Shown here piece by piece: positions 7,090 to 25,672 of a stretch of DNA of 32,866 bases. The notes beneath the pieces are model-generated. The model was not told the origin of the DNA. It made no database searches and saw only the letters and a program-made list of their open reading frames with translations. Every line of letters starts with the position of its first letter. Within the stretch, counting starts at the first letter, position 1. Made by a program: the position numbers and the translations under genes. The DNA is taken from IMG/VR virus record IMGVR_UViG_3300032316_000256, positions 1 through 32,866 of that record; one strand, given 5' to 3'. This DNA is from a virus.

Positions 7090-7893
7090 TTAACGATTTG
7101 TAAATCCAAACCTAGAACCCTCCTGCTTAAACGATAATCTACATCTGCAATTAATTGTATTGGTCATAGAAGCTCCTTGAGTTGAATCACCAGGATATGC
7201 CAACTGCTGACCATTGATAATAAAGTTGTCTTTGATTGGAATAAAGAACTTAGGGTCTGTAAACAAATGAGCATCTCTAGTCCTATCGTCACGGATTGCT
7301 TTCCAGGACTTCTGCCAATTTAATCCTGAGCTTTCTAGTGCAAGAAGTTGTGCTTTACTCATCGCATTGGTAACTTCAGTTCTTGCTATTGTGTTAGATC
7401 GTAACTCTAGGTCTACTTGTCTAATCAAGTCAGCTATCTGCTGATTGCTTAGTCCTTGACTTCTGCTTTTGCCAATTAACTCGTTTACTCTTTTTACTCC
7501 TGTCGATAGTACTTCAGCAATTCTAAAGCCTATGTAGGTACTAAGAAAGCCATCCATAAGCTTTCTCCAGAACGAAGTCATCTCATTTACATCCTGAGGT
7601 GCAAGAGTACTTGCAACCTCATCAAATATGTCTTTTGTCTGAATTTCTTGGTTGGTGATTGGCTTGACAAACTCATTCCAAGTTAATGTGCCCTCATCAT
7701 CCATTATAAGCTGATACATGGCTTGATACACCATAGATATACCTTGACCACTAACAGAGCCGATGTCTTGTCCTGACTCAAATAAACGGGCCATTTCATC
7801 ATACTGCTCATCCAATGCTCGGTTAATTAACCTAGCAAATCGTTTCTCAAAATAAGAATGTCTTGAAAGATATATTTTGTCAGTGTAGTTCAT
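7090..7893 (-). CDS. Mu gpF-like head morphogenesis protein
   Basis: The 267-residue protein has the C-terminal signature of the phage Mu F-like minor head family: ARTEVTNAMSKAQLLAL, then WKAIRDDRTRDAH, and a final NCRCRLSF with the cysteines. The N-terminal 150 residues are helical and less conserved. The family is thought to act inside the procapsid during head assembly. It usually sits next to the portal gene; here it lies after the connector genes, an unusual position. The start overlaps the stop of the small membrane protein upstream (ATGA). Confidence 0.8.
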   Translation of the reverse strand: MNYTDKIYLSRHSYFEKRFARLINRALDEQYDEMARLFESGQDIGSVSGQGISMVYQAMYQLIMDDEGTLTWNEFVKPITNQEIQTKDIFDEVASTLAPQDVNEMTSFWRKLMDGFLSTYIGFRIAEVLSTGVKRVNELIGKSRSQGLSNQQIADLIRQVDLELRSNTIARTEVTNAMSKAQLLALESSGLNWQKSWKAIRDDRTRDAHLFTDPKFFIPIKDNFIINGQQLAYPGDSTQGASMTNTINCRCRLSFKQEGSRFGFTNR

Positions 7894-8069
7894 TTAGAAC
7901 GATCATATATTTCTACTCCTCCCCAGAAAACTAAGAAGCAGAAAGATACTGATAAAAGATAAGCAAACGGCTTGTTGCACCATAGTGCAAACTCTAGGAT
8001 TCCAGAGCAAATTGAAAGGCACAGAAATGACAAAGCAATAATCTGTGCTAAATCCTTAAATTGTTTCAT
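7890..8069 (-). CDS. Small membrane protein within the head-tail operon
   Basis: A 59-residue protein starts at ATG 8069, overlapping the previous stop by ATGA, and ends overlapping the next ATG in the same way, so it is clearly a translated member of the operon. Two hydrophobic helices are visible, residues about 8-30 (IIALSFLCLSICSGILEFAL) and 35-52 (FAYLLSVSFCFLVFWGGV), with five cysteines or more in or next to them. A membrane protein is not part of known head-tail joining. No family was recognised. A holin-like or superinfection-related role is possible but not shown. Confidence 0.7.
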   Translation of the reverse strand: MKQFKDLAQIIALSFLCLSICSGILEFALWCNKPFAYLLSVSFCFLVFWGGVEIYDRSK

Positions 8070-8512
8070 TGTGTTTGTAGAAGTTTCTTAATATTAGCTA
8101 AAGTTTTTTCAAACTCCAACCTTGCGTTCTTATATAAATAGCTTCGAGATGGTAAAGGATAAAATGGGTCTTGAGTTCCTTTAAATTGACTAGCATATTC
8201 TACTAATCCGTATTGTTGTAAAAATGACTTATCTACCCTAGCTCCTGTTCCAAATTCAATAAAAGGAGCATAGTTTACATTATTGATACCACCAGCCTTT
8301 ACAATCCAGGTTAATCCATTGTTTGATACAACAGAACGAATTGTTCCTTTTAATGCCCCAGTATCAACGGGTACATCTCTTTGTGCGTCAGCTTCAGTTC
8401 TTTCTGCCCACCCTCTAACTTCTTTATAGATGCCAGCCTGTACCTGTTCGGAGTACTTGTCTAAATCTTGTAATAGAATGTTAATTCCGCTAACCTTAAC
8501 TTGGACTGCCAT
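8066..8512 (-). CDS. HK97 gp10-like head-tail completion protein
   Basis: The 148-residue protein from ATG 8512 shows the gp10 family hallmarks: VDTGALKGTIRS near residue 60 and YAPFIEFGTGA near residue 95. The family forms part of the tail-proximal neck. The reading frame is open for 15 codons upstream, but that stretch overlaps the upstream gene, so the internal ATG is preferred; overlap is then 17 bases. The end overlaps the membrane protein gene by ATGA. Confidence 0.85.
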   Translation of the reverse strand: MAVQVKVSGINILLQDLDKYSEQVQAGIYKEVRGWAERTEADAQRDVPVDTGALKGTIRSVVSNNGLTWIVKAGGINNVNYAPFIEFGTGARVDKSFLQQYGLVEYASQFKGTQDPFYPLPSRSYLYKNARLEFEKTLANIKKLLQTQ

Positions 8513-18837: not shown

Positions 18838-18991
18838 TAGTGGAAAACATGGCCTAGTGGAAAACATGGCGGAAAAATAGCCATAGTGGAAAACAAAACC
18901 AGGTTTACCCCCTGGTGGAAAACAAAATTTTGCTGAGCCATAGTGTAAAACAAAACCATTCAGCCCAGAATATTACCCTTAGTGTAAAACA
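18838..18991 (+). repeat. Six iteron-like direct repeats, consensus TAGTGKAAAACA
   Basis: Copies start at 18838, 18855, 18884, 18913, 18941 and 18980. The first three are identical (TAGTGGAAAACA), the fourth has TGG in place of TAG, and the last two have T in place of the second G (TAGTGTAAAACA). Spacing is 17, 29, 29, 28 and 39 bases, with three consecutive steps of about 29. All lie in the same direction. Such arrays usually bind an initiator or regulator. A weak hairpin CCAGG/CCTGG lies between copies 3 and 4. Confidence 0.7.
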
Positions 18992-19012
18992 AAAATAAAT
19001 TTTACAATTCCC

Positions 19013-19794: not shown

Positions 19795-19866
19795 ATGGAA
19801 GACCTAGTAAAGACCCTAGACCAATTAATTGGAGAGTTGTACATCATTAAAACACGCAAATCATGA
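19795..19866 (+). CDS. 23-residue peptide upstream of the ERF gene
   Basis: ATG 19795 opens 23 codons that end in TGA overlapping the ERF start (ATGA). The peptide has one amphipathic helix (LVKTLDQLIGELYIIK). It may be a real small protein or a leader that couples translation into the ERF gene; the sequence cannot separate these. Confidence 0.4.
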   Translation: MEDLVKTLDQLIGELYIIKTRKS

Positions 19867-20396
19867 AAGAACTTATTTTAATTCAAAACGAGCTAAAAGC
19901 TCCCAAGAGCCAATTCAATGCATTTGGCAAGTACAAGTATAGAAACTGCGAGGACATCCTGGAGGCTCTCAAGCCTTTGCTTCTAAAGTACGAATGCACC
20001 TTAACTATCGAGGATGAGGTTAAAGAGGTTGGTGGTATTGTATTCATAGAAAGTACGGTATCTATACAGATAGATAAAGAAGGCAGAACCGAAGGCAGAG
20101 CAGTTACAGCCCAGGCAGGTATCGACATCAACCGCAAGGGCATGGATGTTGCACAGTCGTTCGGAAGCAGCAGCTCGTATGCTCGAAAATATGCACTCTC
20201 TGGTCTCCTATTAATCGATGATACAAAAGACCCAGATTCAACCAACGATCATGGTGGTAAAAAAGAGGAGTTAACTCCAGCACATGTAAAGTGGCAAGGA
20301 GCAAAGGATTCTCTAGCCAATGGCAAGGTATCTATGGAGCAAATTAAGTCGGTTTATAATTTAACAGCACAAAACGAAAAACTATTATTATCATGA
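19863..20396 (+). CDS. ERF-family single-strand annealing protein
   Basis: The 177-residue protein has the ERF signature: FGKYKYRNCEDILEALKPLL at about 21-40, a conserved strand region, then SFGSSSSYARKYALSGLLLI near 100-119 and an acidic DDTKDPDS. ERF proteins form rings that anneal complementary single strands during phage recombination. The gene overlaps the exonuclease gene next to it by four bases, the classic annealing-protein/exonuclease pair. The C-terminal 50 residues are variable and may bind partner proteins. Confidence 0.9.
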   Translation: MKELILIQNELKAPKSQFNAFGKYKYRNCEDILEALKPLLLKYECTLTIEDEVKEVGGIVFIESTVSIQIDKEGRTEGRAVTAQAGIDINRKGMDVAQSFGSSSSYARKYALSGLLLIDDTKDPDSTNDHGGKKEELTPAHVKWQGAKDSLANGKVSMEQIKSVYNLTAQNEKLLLS

Positions 20397-20992
20397 ACTT
20401 TAAATGCAGAGCAAGTGCCCTTGGCCATTTGATGACCAACGCACGGAGTAAAACAGAAACTTTGTCTCAGACAACTAAGAGCTACCTGGAGGATTGGTAC
20501 AAGGAGCAGATTTATGGACTAAAGAAGCAGATCAAGAGTAAGTACATTCAGAAGGGATTGGCACTTGAGGATACGGCTATCGAGTTTTACTCGGTAGCTA
20601 TGGAGAAGGACTTTATGATTAAGAACCTGGATCACTTTGAGGATGATTTCTTTACAGGTACTCCAGATTGTTTTCACGATGGTATAGTCTATGACTTTAA
20701 AACCTCGTGGGACTGCTTTACTTTCCCTCTGTTTGACGATTCCCCTGACAGTGGGTACTTCTACCAACTTCAGGTTTACATGCACCTGACGGGCTTAAAA
20801 AAGGCCAAGTTAGTGTACACTCTCCAAGACACTCCAGAGTTCTTGACTTATGAGGAGCCTGTGAGCTATGCACACGTGGAAAATAAGTACAGAATCAAAG
20901 AGTTTGACATTGAGTATGACCCCCAGGTAATTGAGATGGCCAAGGCCAAGGTATTGGAGTGTAGAGAGTATTTAAACGGTATGGCGGTATGA
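20393..20992 (+). CDS. YqaJ-like recombinase exonuclease
   Basis: The 199-residue protein has PD-(D/E)XK nuclease motifs: KGLALEDTAIEFY (Glu59) near 54-66, GTPDCF with Asp92, VYDFKTS with Asp101 and Lys103, and YQLQVYMHLTG near 124-134. Such enzymes chew back one strand of double-stranded ends to give the substrate for ERF. It overlaps ERF upstream and the helix-turn-helix gene downstream. Confidence 0.85.
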   Translation: MNFKCRASALGHLMTNARSKTETLSQTTKSYLEDWYKEQIYGLKKQIKSKYIQKGLALEDTAIEFYSVAMEKDFMIKNLDHFEDDFFTGTPDCFHDGIVYDFKTSWDCFTFPLFDDSPDSGYFYQLQVYMHLTGLKKAKLVYTLQDTPEFLTYEEPVSYAHVENKYRIKEFDIEYDPQVIEMAKAKVLECREYLNGMAV

Positions 20993-21744: not shown

Positions 21745-23952
21745 ATGAACGTCACACTAGGAAGAGCAATTAATTTACTGAACTCAGGGTTCAGTGTAAT
21801 GCCCATATCGGAGGGTAAGAAGCCTTTGATTTTATGGAAGGAGTACCAGACAAAGAAGATAGAAAAGTCAGAATTAGAGAAGCTAGAACACAAGACCAAA
21901 GGGTATGGTATTATAACAGGTTATTATGATGTTGAATGTATAGATGTAGATTTAAAGGTATTCCCTACCATCCAAGATGGAAAGAAGTTTTGGAGTGACT
22001 TTATTTCTTTTATTTCAGATTATATTGATGACTTTAATAGAAAGTTTGTTATATATAAGACTATAAATTCGGGCTACCATATTATATACCGATGCTCTAA
22101 GGTCGAAGGCAATAGAAAGCTCGCAACACTAAAGGGACATTCTCAAGCCTTAATTGAAACCAGGGGCACAGGTGGGTATATATATATCTATGATAACCAG
22201 GTGTCGGACTTGTCTTACGAACAAATCCATGAGATTACAGAGGAAGAGAGAGACATTCTGTTTAGCCTATGTCGATATTTCCACTACGATGAAGCCAAGG
22301 TGGAAGTCAAGGTGGAAAATACAGAGTATAGCGGATTAACTCCTTGGGAGGATTACAACCAGAGGAACAGAGTGCTAGACTTAATTGCAAATGAGTTCAC
22401 CGCAGTAAAGCACCTGACGGATCGCATAGTAATTAGAAAAACTAATTCTAAGGATGCCTTGCACGGATTTATCTACAAGGATACAGGTCTCTGTTATCTC
22501 TTCACTACGGCCACGATTTACCCTCATGAGACACCTTTGACTCCGTTTAGTATCTACGCATACAAATACTTTAGTGGTGACTTCTCAGTAGCTGCTAAGG
22601 AGCTTTACAAGGAAGGCTATGGAGAGCGGAAAATCCGCAAGGTAGAGATTGAGAAAATTGAGATACCCCAGGAGGATTTGATATTTCCGATTGATGTCTT
22701 CCCAGAGTCATTGCAGAGTTATATTCTGTTAAACCAGAAAACACTTAATCATTCTATTGACTACATGGGATGTAGCTTACTTTGGCTTCTCTCGCTCTGC
22801 ATTGGTAACGCTTGCAAGGTAGAGGTAAAAACAGGATGGAGAGAGTCGGTCAACATCTGGATTGGATTGATAGGCAAGGCAGGTCTTGGTAAGACCCCTA
22901 GTATAAATGCCATTATCTTTCCGATTGCAAAGAAGAATAGCTTTGAAATTAAGCACTTCCAGAATGAGTACAAGAAGTACAAGGAGTACGAGCGTTTGAC
23001 TGCAAAGGAAAAGAAGGATGTGGAGGAAGTTAAGGAGCCTGTAAGAAAGCAGTTGATAGTAAATGACATTACTGTGGAGGCCTTAGCGGATTTGCATGAG
23101 GAAAATCAGGTAGGCATTGCGGTGTTTAAGGATGAGTTGAACGGATGGATTAAGGACATGAATAAGTATAAGCCTGGTTCTGATCTTGAGTTTTGGCTCT
23201 CCTGCTGGTCTAACCAAGCAGCGATTCTGACACGAAAGACTGCCAAGAGTAGCTTTGTGCAGAGCCCATTGATTCCTGTGCTTGGTGGAATACAGCCTGG
23301 TATATTTTCGCAGATTTCCACCATGGAAAACAAGGATAACGGATTCTTAGACCGATTGCTAGTCAGCTACCCTGATAAGGAGATTGAGCATTACAACAAG
23401 AACTCCATTGACCAAGAGATATTGGATTGGTATGAGGCTTACATTAGTCAGTTCTATAACCTAGTGAGAAACCAAGTATTGCAGTACAATAAGTTTGGCG
23501 AGATTGAGAGCAGAATCATTCGATTTGATAGCCAAGCAGATATTGAGTGGGAAAGGATATTCAACAACATCACAGACTTGCAGAACTCAGATGACATATC
23601 GGAATATGTGAAGTCGATGTTGAGTAAGCAGAAGGCTTATGTTCCTAGATTTGCTTTGCTGATTAATACATTGACTTCATTCGAGACTGGAAAGGACTTT
23701 GACTTTGTTACTAAGGAATCATTGCTGAAGGCGGAGAAGTTGAGCAATTACTTCATTGCTATGTCTAAGAAAATTAAGGTCAGTAGCTTGGAGTCCAATG
23801 AGCTTAGTGAAATTATTCGGTCTATGAAAAATGAGTCCATAGAAAAGAAAATTGATATGATTCATAAGACCATACCTGATTTTAACCGCTCTGAGTTAGC
23901 AGAGTTATTAAATGTTAGTAGAACCACTATTTATAAACACTTAAAGAAATGA
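21745..23952 (+). CDS. Primase-helicase (prim-pol plus DUF3987-type ATPase)
   Basis: The 735-residue protein has an N-terminal prim-pol (archaeo-eukaryotic primase) domain, about 10-175: CIDVDLK with Asp67 and Asp69, NSGYHIIYR with His112, and LIETRGTGGY. The C-terminal half is a DUF3987-like ATPase: Walker A GKAGLGKT near 377-384, a Walker B-like VFKDELNGW near 463, and the conserved WSNQAAILTRKT and PVLGGIQPGIF. A short helix-turn-helix (RSELAELLNVSRTTIYKHLKK) ends the chain. It should prime and unwind phage DNA. There is no phage DNA polymerase, so the host enzyme is presumably recruited. Lysine codons are mostly AAG. Confidence 0.85.
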   Translation: MNVTLGRAINLLNSGFSVMPISEGKKPLILWKEYQTKKIEKSELEKLEHKTKGYGIITGYYDVECIDVDLKVFPTIQDGKKFWSDFISFISDYIDDFNRKFVIYKTINSGYHIIYRCSKVEGNRKLATLKGHSQALIETRGTGGYIYIYDNQVSDLSYEQIHEITEEERDILFSLCRYFHYDEAKVEVKVENTEYSGLTPWEDYNQRNRVLDLIANEFTAVKHLTDRIVIRKTNSKDALHGFIYKDTGLCYLFTTATIYPHETPLTPFSIYAYKYFSGDFSVAAKELYKEGYGERKIRKVEIEKIEIPQEDLIFPIDVFPESLQSYILLNQKTLNHSIDYMGCSLLWLLSLCIGNACKVEVKTGWRESVNIWIGLIGKAGLGKTPSINAIIFPIAKKNSFEIKHFQNEYKKYKEYERLTAKEKKDVEEVKEPVRKQLIVNDITVEALADLHEENQVGIAVFKDELNGWIKDMNKYKPGSDLEFWLSCWSNQAAILTRKTAKSSFVQSPLIPVLGGIQPGIFSQISTMENKDNGFLDRLLVSYPDKEIEHYNKNSIDQEILDWYEAYISQFYNLVRNQVLQYNKFGEIESRIIRFDSQADIEWERIFNNITDLQNSDDISEYVKSMLSKQKAYVPRFALLINTLTSFETGKDFDFVTKESLLKAEKLSNYFIAMSKKIKVSSLESNELSEIIRSMKNESIEKKIDMIHKTIPDFNRSELAELLNVSRTTIYKHLKK

Positions 23953-23953
23953 T
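23934..23953 (+). repeat. Direct repeat, left copy (20 bp)
   Basis: TAAACACTTAAAGAAATGAT is identical to 24757-24776. This copy holds the last codons of the primase gene (KHLKK, stop) and the start of the PP-loop gene. The pair brackets the PP-loop gene with a spacing of 823 bases. Confidence 0.9.
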
Positions 23954-24752
23954 GACTATCAATAGTTTATCTGGAGGCAAAACATCTAGCTACATGGCTG
24001 TTCATTATCCTGCTGATTACGAAATATTTGCTTTGGTTAAAATTGAAGATATAAACTGCAAGCCTAAAGATCAGAGCATAGTAAAATATGCTTCTGAAAA
24101 GTTAGGACAGGATTTTATTGCTACGGCAGAAAGTGACCTAACCTTGTATGCTATGAGAGACCTTGAGCAGTTGATAGGAAAAGAAATCATTTGGGTAAGC
24201 GGAAGAACATTTGATGCTTTAAACAAAAAGAAAAAAGCAGTACCTAATAAGCAGTGGCGGTTTTGTACTACTGAGATGAAAATGCGACCAATATTTGATT
24301 GGTGGTATAAAAACATAGGGGAAAAGGTAAAAATGGGTGTTGGTTTTAGATACGATGAAAAAGAAAGAGCTGATAAGTTTAGTACAACTCTAAAAGGAAT
24401 AATCGGTCAAAAAAACAATCGTAATCAATGGAAAGAAATAGAATGGAGAGAAGGTTATTTCCCATTGATTGAAAACAAGATAACTCATTATCCTATTTAC
24501 CAATGGGCACAGAAAAGCGGTATTGTATTTCCTGAAGATAGTAATTGTGTTGGATGCTTTTGGAAACCAGTACAGCAACTAAGAAAGAATTGGGATGAAA
24601 ATACAGAAAAAATGCAATGGTTTGCTGATCAAGAAAAGATAGGAACTTGGAAGACAGACATTACTTATGAGCAAATAAAAACTATTGGTTTACAACAAGA
24701 CTTCTTCTTTGGAACTGGTAGTGGATGTCAAGCAGGATTTTGTACAGATTAA
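23949..24752 (+). CDS. PP-loop ATPase of the PAPS reductase-like family
   Basis: The 267-residue protein has SGGKTSS at 8-14, the PP-loop that binds ATP in adenylating enzymes. RFCTTEMKMRPI near 104-115 is the second conserved PAPS-reductase-like motif. Two cysteine pairs (Cys200/Cys203 and Cys260/Cys265) could hold a metal or Fe-S cluster. Known relatives activate sulfate or thiolate nucleic acids; the substrate here is unknown. The ATG overlaps the primase stop. A 20-bp direct repeat brackets the gene, and lysine codons (19 AAA, 10 AAG) differ from the primase (mostly AAG), so it looks like a recent insertion. DNA or RNA modification is one possibility. Confidence 0.8.
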   Translation: MMTINSLSGGKTSSYMAVHYPADYEIFALVKIEDINCKPKDQSIVKYASEKLGQDFIATAESDLTLYAMRDLEQLIGKEIIWVSGRTFDALNKKKKAVPNKQWRFCTTEMKMRPIFDWWYKNIGEKVKMGVGFRYDEKERADKFSTTLKGIIGQKNNRNQWKEIEWREGYFPLIENKITHYPIYQWAQKSGIVFPEDSNCVGCFWKPVQQLRKNWDENTEKMQWFADQEKIGTWKTDITYEQIKTIGLQQDFFFGTGSGCQAGFCTD

Positions 24753-24756
24753 TAAC

Positions 24757-24776
24757 TAAACACTTAAAGAAATGAT
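24757..24776 (+). repeat. Direct repeat, right copy (20 bp)
   Basis: It is identical to 23934-23953. Here it is non-coding except for the ATG of the next gene at 24772, and reads like a remnant of the primase end (AAACACTTAAAGAAATGA). Removing the unit from one repeat to the other would bring the next gene back to an ATGA overlap with the primase stop. Confidence 0.9.
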
Positions 24777-24972
24777 AATTAACGGAAAAGAGTTAGGGTC
24801 ATTTGAGATTGTTAGATACTCATTTGACCAAGTAAAAGGAGAGCCAAAGATTCTAATACATCAGATTAAGGCTCTTGATGTCAATGGTGCATACATAAAG
24901 TTTGCTAAGCTAGAATCGGTAATTCCATACCTATGTCAATATCCCATCACATTTAAAAACCTAGAACAATGA
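24772..24972 (+). CDS. Small protein of unknown function
   Basis: A 66-residue, beta-rich protein from ATG 24772, whose ATG lies in the right direct repeat. Segments such as GSFEIVRYSFDQVKGEPKIL look like paired strands. No family recognised. Before insertion of the PP-loop cassette it probably overlapped the primase stop. The end overlaps the next ATG. Confidence 0.6.
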   Translation: MIINGKELGSFEIVRYSFDQVKGEPKILIHQIKALDVNGAYIKFAKLESVIPYLCQYPITFKNLEQ

Positions 24973-25190
24973 TTGAAGCACTAGACGAAGTATCAGAAAT
25001 CCCATTTGAAGTATTCTGGGATAAGTACATGGAAGCAAGACCTGGAGACTATGATAAGACATACACCCAAGGAATATGGCTAAAGATGAGAGAAGAAAAT
25101 AGGTTACTTGCATTTGAATATATGTGCAGGTTTGGAACAGACTACAAGACTCCTGTATTGCATTTAGAGGCATTCGATCTACCATTCTGA
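24969..25190 (+). CDS. Small protein with SSB-like C-terminal tip
   Basis: A 73-residue helical, acidic protein from ATG 24969. It ends in HLEAFDLPF, close to the DLPF/DIPF tip with which single-strand binding proteins contact partner enzymes. No OB fold is visible, and the body (FEVFWDKYMEARPGDYDKTYTQ) is not recognised. It overlaps the VRR-NUC gene. A role in contacting replication proteins is inferred only from the tail. Confidence 0.5.
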   Translation: MIEALDEVSEIPFEVFWDKYMEARPGDYDKTYTQGIWLKMREENRLLAFEYMCRFGTDYKTPVLHLEAFDLPF

Positions 25191-25672
25191 TGAAACCACT
25201 TGACATTCTAAAACAACTCAAGCAAGAGTCGATGCTAGAATCTTATCCAAATGTGCCTAAGTATGCTATATCAACACCGAAGTATGATGATAAGACAGCC
25301 AATGGGCTTACCAAGTGCGTCAAAGAGTTCCTAGAGCTTAGTGGATACCAAGCAGAGCGGATCAACACGATGGGCAGACCAATAGACAACAGAAAGCAAG
25401 TGACCGATGTGATAGGCAGAACGAAGACCATCGGCTCTATGACCTGGGGCAAGTCAACAGCAACAAAAGGATCAGCAGATATTTCAGCCACAATCCTGGG
25501 CAGGTCGGTAAAAATAGAGGTAAAGATAGGCAGAGACAGGCAGTCGGAGGATCAAAAAATCTACCAGCAGGCAATAGAAAAGTCTGGAGGTCAGTACTGG
25601 ATAGTAAAAAACTTTGCTGACTTCTATGAAAAATATCAGAATTTTCTTTTATGCAATAAATCAATAAGTTAA
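25190..25672 (+). CDS. VRR-NUC domain nuclease
   Basis: The 160-residue protein begins at ATG 25190, overlapping the preceding stop; a frame open earlier is not used. Residues about 94-140 are the VRR-NUC nuclease core: KGSADISA with Asp97, VKIEVKIGRDRQSEDQ with Glu110 and Lys112, and a later YWIVKNFADFYE strand-helix. Such enzymes are structure-specific nucleases and may resolve branched DNA. The first 70 residues are a helical region (CVKEFLELSGYQAERIN). It sits in the replication/recombination operon. Confidence 0.8.
   Translation: MKPLDILKQLKQESMLESYPNVPKYAISTPKYDDKTANGLTKCVKEFLELSGYQAERINTMGRPIDNRKQVTDVIGRTKTIGSMTWGKSTATKGSADISATILGRSVKIEVKIGRDRQSEDQKIYQQAIEKSGGQYWIVKNFADFYEKYQNFLLCNKSIS

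Follow-up and report, generated by a model that had tools for sequence, protein, structure and literature searches.

An Exchange Slot Behind the Phage Primase Gene: An Optional PP-Loop Gene Followed by a Copy of the Primase End

Main Finding

The junction downstream of the primase gene is an exchange slot, at which a PP-loop gene is present, absent or replaced in related phages. The window analyzed here, i.e., the whole stretch of 32,866 nucleotides of IMG/VR virus record IMGVR_UViG_3300032316_000256, carries a filled form of this slot, in which the PP-loop gene is flanked exactly by two copies of a 20-bp direct repeat (TAAACACTTAAAGAAATGAT). A previous sequence-only reading had regarded this gene as a recently inserted, self-contained cassette. 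The insertion part of that reading was largely right, but instead of a single recent insertion that left a scar, the site is better described as a slot where exchange has gone on for long, and the gene-end copy there is conserved and probably functional. The best joint explanation, which we consider probable, is that a movable module carries the copied primase end both as recombination homology and as a leader.

The Repeat and Its Locus

Both repeat copies proved to be arranged as the sequence-only reading had claimed. The left copy comprises the last codons of the primase gene (..Y-K-H-L-K-K-stop), which overlap the PP-loop ORF at its ATGA, and the right copy consists of 15 non-coding bases and the ATGAT of a 66-aa ORF (g66), with TAAC as a spacer between the PP-loop stop codon and the right copy (Table 1). 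No further match was found in the window when up to three mismatches were allowed, and 0.01 matches would be expected by chance according to dinucleotide shuffles. The same two-copy arrangement was also detected in four contigs from different metagenomes (L002, L009, L016, and L081), and is therefore no assembly artefact.

Table 1. Features around the primase/PP-loop junction of the window.
Feature	Position	Strand	Matches (E-value)
Erf-like ssDNA-annealing protein, likely recombination engine	19863..20396	+	PHROG 155 (6.7e-37)
Phage exonuclease, RecE-like recombination partner	20393..20992	+	PHROG 5715 (1.5e-52); PHROG 434 (2.8e-10)
Primase-helicase (Prim-Pol + DUF3987), gene on the left; the left repeat copy is its 3' end	21745..23952	+	Pfam PF13148 (1.5e-54), PF09250 (1.1e-6)
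Left repeat copy (primase end + ATGAT of PP-loop ORF)	23934..23953	+	
PP-loop (PAPS reductase/SspD-like) ORF, 267 aa, optional cassette gene	23949..24752	+	PHROG 424 (3.1e-21); PADLOC SspD (8.4e-12)
TAAC spacer, PP-loop stop to right copy	24753..24756	+	
Right repeat copy, 15 non-coding bases + ATGAT; probable leader and recombination homology	24757..24776	+	
66-aa ORF (g66), no function assigned, itself optional in relatives	24772..24972	+	
73-aa ORF (g73), no function assigned; native gene beside the junction when g66 is absent	24969..25190	+	
159-aa ORF, weak Holliday junction resolvase/endonuclease matches	25193..25672	+	PHROG 824 (7.2e-5), PHROG 5702 (0.0044)

DNA relatives of this region were not found among isolated phages, nor were primase relatives in bacterial genomes. 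Rfam and tRNA searches gave no matches, and the Bacteroidetes promoter motif (TANNTTTG) was not enriched in the window. Elsewhere in the window, an intergenic array of imperfect repeats around CCATAGTGGAAAACAAAA (18842-18997), which has similar counterparts (TAGTGTAAAACAAAACCA) in relatives, is possibly an origin or a protein-binding array.

The Junction in Related Phages

Relatives were collected from IMG/VR as 80 close loci by primase and 80 loci by PP-loop protein, and the junction was compared among the 75 primase loci in which it was usable. Six slot states were observed between shared flanks: nothing inserted (39 rows), g66 (19), the PP-loop gene (6), the PP-loop gene plus g66 (3), a 180-aa gene (6), and a 212-aa gene with no assigned function (2). 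The PP-loop gene thus occurs at 9 of the 75 loci and is absent from 66, so that its constant presence in relatives, which had been named as an outcome against insertion, did not occur.

A collapsed, single-copy junction is present in 58 loci, where the sequence reads ...TAAACACTTAAAGAAATGAT... straight into g66 or g73 and the primase gene directly overlaps one of these genes, which is the ATGA overlap that had been predicted from collapsing the two repeats. Exactly one exact 20-mer was found at 39 of these 58 empty sites and two at none of them, the edge of the module being identical to the empty site of a recipient; two 20-mers were found at five of the nine filled sites, a small sample. The cleanest comparison for a gene-free backbone is L011, which has the backbone of the window (mostly 89-99% in the left flank and 90-99% in the right flank) and no PP-loop gene. 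This gene was also absent altogether from the 34-37 kb relatives L045 and L078, whose records may be fragments. The empty-site relatives support the proposal of a self-contained optional gene at an operon junction, with neither neighbour broken.

The 180-aa gene occupies the same slot (slot 1) in L013, L015, and L059-L062, and was termed HNH-like because CxxC...HH...CxxC residues were noticed on visual inspection; it had no Pfam matches. The right end of this gene in L060 and L062 carries ACTTAAAAAAATGA, its last codons copying their own primase end, unlike in L013, L059, and L061.

Movement of the Cassette

Slot content changed 27 times on a tree built on 1040 primase bases (minimum 5; mean after shuffling 32.6), and the presence of the PP-loop gene changed 8 times for the 9 filled rows; at any single branch, either gain or loss is possible. 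The slot PP-loops showed at least four context changes or separate placements on a tree of 97 PP-loop proteins; the tree bootstrap had not settled. Synonymous divergence (dS by NG86, with high values for the primase) was 2.7-5.4 times lower in the cassette than in the primase in the two filled pairs in which the primase was compared, the other filled loci being partly truncated. Values for the window and L009 were 0.24 for the PP-loop gene, 0.64 for the primase, and 0.43 for g73, and those for L002 and L016 were 0.07, 0.40, and 0.66, respectively. Among A-type cassette copies, dS was 0.24-0.39; in the pair measured, the backbone is older than the A-type cassette, which is nevertheless not newborn.

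In addition, the PP-loop allele of L002, L016, and L145 is an internal hybrid. Its first ~240 and last ~60 nt are 92-100% identical to the window, and its centre is about 60% identical to the window and mostly 80-87%, up to 97%, identical to L152, which shows that alleles are swapped inside a common shell. In L039 (7205-8005) and L094, the allele is interrupted by an in-frame TAA within its final third, and the PP-loop gene is therefore dispensable. The multiple tree placements, the hybrid allele, and the low cassette dS therefore indicate that the cassette circulates by recombination, whose engine is probably the phage's own Erf/exonuclease pair (19863-20992). The single recent insertion proposed previously does not agree with this diversity of placements, with alleles swapped inside a shell, or with the dS among A-type copies.

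Two further arguments concern the age of the gene at this site. Lysine codons had been cited as a sign of recent arrival, and the counts were right (AAA/AAG 19/10 in the PP-loop gene, 1/12 in the first 100 primase codons, and 12/60 in the whole primase gene), but undisturbed neighbours are also AAA-rich (9/10 in the Erf gene, 8/9 in the HTH gene, and 3/4 in the 66-aa gene); therefore, the contrast lies with the primase and not with the operon, and codon usage is a weak argument. Conversely, the PP-loop gene could be ancestral at the junction, the empty sites representing repeated deletions between the copies, with no insertion in the lineage of the window. Deletion between direct repeats would yield exactly the empty junction observed, and the TAATAAC tail is common to PP-loops of distant backbones, including L049; however, the cassette has a far lower dS than its flanks in both pairs measured, and the separate placements of the slot alleles imply that transfer into backbones occurred, which makes an ancestral gene quite improbable.

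The Right Copy and Its Tail

The right end of filled sites takes several forms. It reads TAATAAC-TAAACACTTAAAGAA in the window, L002, L009, L016, and L081, ...TAAACAATTTAAAGAA in L145, ...TATAAACTTAAAGAA in L039, TAAACACTTAAACAA directly at the PP-loop stop in L095, and ...TAAACAACCACAACA, with no recognisable copy of the primase end, in L049. Scores against the primase end were 15 for the window type, 11 for L145, 12 for L039, 13 for L095, and 7 for L049, and the 304 control leaders averaged 6.6, with 11 at the 99th percentile and 14 at most. The score of L049 was reached by 139 of the 304 control leaders, which is chance level against its own primase end. A right copy unlike the primase end, which the sequence-only reading had listed as evidence against itself, was therefore found in this one lineage.

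The right copy might instead be an independent leader of the TAAACAC...AA-ATG style, the primase end being leader-like as it leads the next gene. The control maximum is the Erf leader of L002, L007, and L009, 14 bases of which match the primase end, and TAAACAC-like sequence is frequent in leaders of the phage group of the window; therefore, part of the likeness may be convergent. The tail of L049, leader-like without a copy, and the conservation described below also agree with an independent leader. On the other hand, the 15 contiguous identical bases up to the start codon outscore all control leaders, and scores of 11-13 were obtained for four more right ends in slot 1, compared with the control mean and 99th percentile given above, so this explanation appears unlikely.

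The sequence TAATAAC (stop plus TAAC) follows 7 of 8 slot PP-loops and 0 of 89 elsewhere in the 97-protein tree set, and also follows the stop-bearing allele of L039 and L094; being confined to slot PP-loops, the tail therefore belongs to the slot. Five phages have an identical 19-nt tail despite 5-19 third-position differences among them over the first 80 PP-loop codons; the tail is more conserved than synonymous sites, and is thus under constraint rather than a decaying scar. Such conservation of the right copy points to a function, and it is proposed that the copy is conserved because it serves as a leader for the next gene. The simple insertion scar suggested previously is not consistent with this conservation, the variable form, or the L049 end.

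Several other properties of the copy were examined. Synonymous constraint at the primase end was not significant (diversity is low across the last 8 codons, but equally low values occur in 45 of 493 windows). The repeat region is unstructured, with MFE z-scores of 0.56 for the right copy and 0.49 for the left, i.e., it folds no better than shuffles. A collection-wide pattern scan for right copies on other genes gave only the known PP-loop cases and unrelated chance hits, and a 16-nt match to the right tail of L145, 3 kb downstream and away from any gene start, was judged to be chance. Since L049 has no copy, and HNH-like and X5 genes sit in the slot without a right copy, the copy is unnecessary for exchange.

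These right ends also bear on a transposon-like or site-specific element, of which the 20-bp repeat would be the target-site duplication or att core. The exact direct repeat, the compact unit, and a gene 3' end left intact as at att sites would fit such an element; however, the sole ORF of the cassette encodes the PP-loop protein, with no recombinase or transposase, convincing terminal inverted repeats are absent (those found are chance-like), right ends vary between filled sites, TAAC separates the stop codon from the repeat, and related PP-loop genes elsewhere lack such a repeat. An element of this kind is extremely improbable, and both a transposon with target-site duplication and an att core were rejected. 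The right copy is no fixed target-site duplication, given its spacer, variable form, absence in L049, and leader-like conservation. An integron-type gene cassette was also rejected, as the tail is unstructured and thus unlike a structured attC. A homing endonuclease-driven cassette would carry a nuclease gene, and the PP-loop protein is no nuclease by family or fold. Indirect help from the HNH-like ORF occupying the slot in 6 other rows is possible.

The PP-Loop Protein

The PP-loop protein has an SGGKTS loop and invariant cysteines (C106, C200, C203, C260, and C265), and matches PHROG 424 (PAPS reductase) and, over residues 69-194 only, the PADLOC SspD profile. An AF2 model with a mean pLDDT of 88.8 has the PAPS reductase (CysH)-type PP-loop fold at weak E-values, its best PDB matches being 1sur, 2goy, and 2o8v (3.5e-3 to 1.2e-2), i.e., PAPS/APS reductases, and also LarE. 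The nearest relative from an isolate is that of Cellulophaga phage phi19:3 (49%). The protein resembles phage PAPS-reductase-like and SspD/DndC-like PP-loop proteins in its loop, cysteines, PHROG family, and fold, but differs from them in having no Pfam or NCBIfam match at threshold and no solved-structure relative by sequence search. A role in sulfur transfer or DNA modification is plausible from these sequence and model features.

Proposed Mechanism and Origin of the Copy

We propose that exchange takes place at a slot that follows the primase gene within a conserved replication operon, and that the movable module would consist of the PP-loop ORF and the 19-nt tail, i.e., TAAC and the 15-nt copy of the primase 3' end. 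The module may be gained, lost, and swapped via recombination at short shared sequences, with the Erf/exonuclease pair as the candidate engine. The primase end plus ATGA would provide the left homology, and the copied primase end the right homology, which could pair with the primase end in all empty-site phages, regardless of the gene that comes next. If the two copies recombined with each other, the module would be lost and the intact ATGA overlap restored. Erf-type systems and mosaicism have been discussed previously, and Erf may act like Red-beta (PMC2327257); RecET joins 5-13 bp (cited in PMC2327257).

The copy may double as an A-rich, unstructured leader for translation of the next gene. 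Bacteroidetes have no Shine-Dalgarno signals, and initiation in Flavobacterium johnsoniae is tuned by mRNA structure and key upstream bases, e.g., A at -3 (PMC6847099); the base at -3 of the right-copy leader is G. Based on the leader style and the Cellulophaga phages among isolated relatives, our guess is that the host belongs to Bacteroidetes.

The copy itself might have arisen by a short-homology crossover. L092-type PP-loop genes, which are located elsewhere and are close to the PP-loop of L095, terminate in GATTAAACAAAAAT; the primase end at empty sites is TATAAACACTTAAAGAAATGA, and L095 reads GATTAAACACTTAAACAAATGA, in which a donor-type tail (GATTAAACA) is joined to CTTAAA(C)AAATGATTG. 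Comparison of these sequences suggests that L095 was joined at TAAACA, common to L092-type donors and the empty primase end, and that its left join lies at (A)ATGA. If both joins fell within one 20-base stretch of the recipient, but in opposite order, that stretch would be duplicated.

A broader idea, which is possible but still tentative, is that in this phage group the copy of the left neighbour's end at the 3' side of a transferable gene serves as leader and universal landing homology, allowing scarless, self-docking insertion into overlapping operons with no dedicated recombinase or structured site.

A Second Slot and Other Repeated Leaders

Another variable slot, the second, lies at the junction of g73 with the 159-aa gene; it holds a C5 methyltransferase, a GNAT acetyltransferase, or an N6/N4 methyltransferase; duplicated gene ends are absent from it. 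The C5 cytosine methyltransferase ORF in this slot (L005:7319-8503) overlaps, in many relatives, a 315-aa ORF in another frame (7482-8429), which has no Pfam match, was found in about 40 loci, and is possibly a real gene.

A 25-nt exact repeat (leader plus ATGGAAACGC) precedes two unrelated genes of 219 and 62 aa in L067 (129-153 and 872-896), so that here, too, a gene is bracketed by a copied leader; this junction hints that the copied-leader arrangement is wider than the primase slot. Shorter leader repeats before different genes were detected in L017 (513 and 1384) and L029 (975 and 1241). Runs of about 6-10 C (e.g., ACCCACCCCCCCCC) lie just upstream of genes in L029, L034, L041, L045, and L060, after g73, and before primase and Erf genes in some relatives; they are absent from the window's own junction. 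Tandem small paralogous ORFs of about 60-70 aa (MKKQTAVEWL...YYEETYG) were observed in L019 (3807-4250), L016 (584-802), and L049 (3874-4062), forming a row between the exonuclease and HTH genes with ATGA overlaps and near-identical ends.

Comparison with Known Systems and Implications

PeSL shuffling in T4-type phages (Arbiol 2010 and Comeau 2014, as cited in PMC4503421) reportedly involves short expression-control repeats between genes that double as recombination homology. The present repeat is similar in that a repeated control sequence would double as homology, but the T4 PeSL combines a promoter with a stem-loop terminator, whereas the repeat of the window has no stem-loop, is a gene end/leader, and is found at this one junction. 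Like phage morons and auxiliary genes, the PP-loop gene is an optional, dispensable single gene that occurs elsewhere in unrelated phages; unlike morons, it is fitted into an overlapping operon, and neither a promoter nor a terminator belonging to it was identified. The ultra-small mobile element of mycobacteriophages, MPME (PMC3029335), is also a small insert in one among near-identical phages, but its inverted repeats and identical sequence between copies do not apply to the PP-loop cassette. The boundary-sequence modular exchanges of mosaic phages (PMC3029335, PMC2327257) likewise involve swaps at short shared gene-border sequences, intact neighbours, and an annealing recombinase; here, however, the right boundary duplicates the coding end of the gene on the left, and a single population includes the empty, filled, and swapped states.

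The process is of a known kind and is unusually well resolved. Insertion of phage genes into tightly overlapping operons without breaking the neighbours is usually inferred from distant comparisons, whereas here natural phages that are closely related show a single junction in its empty, filled, swapped, and hybrid forms, resolved to the base, and the candidate recombination engine is encoded only a few kilobases from it. The dispute between boundary homology and illegitimate recombination becomes testable at one defined site.
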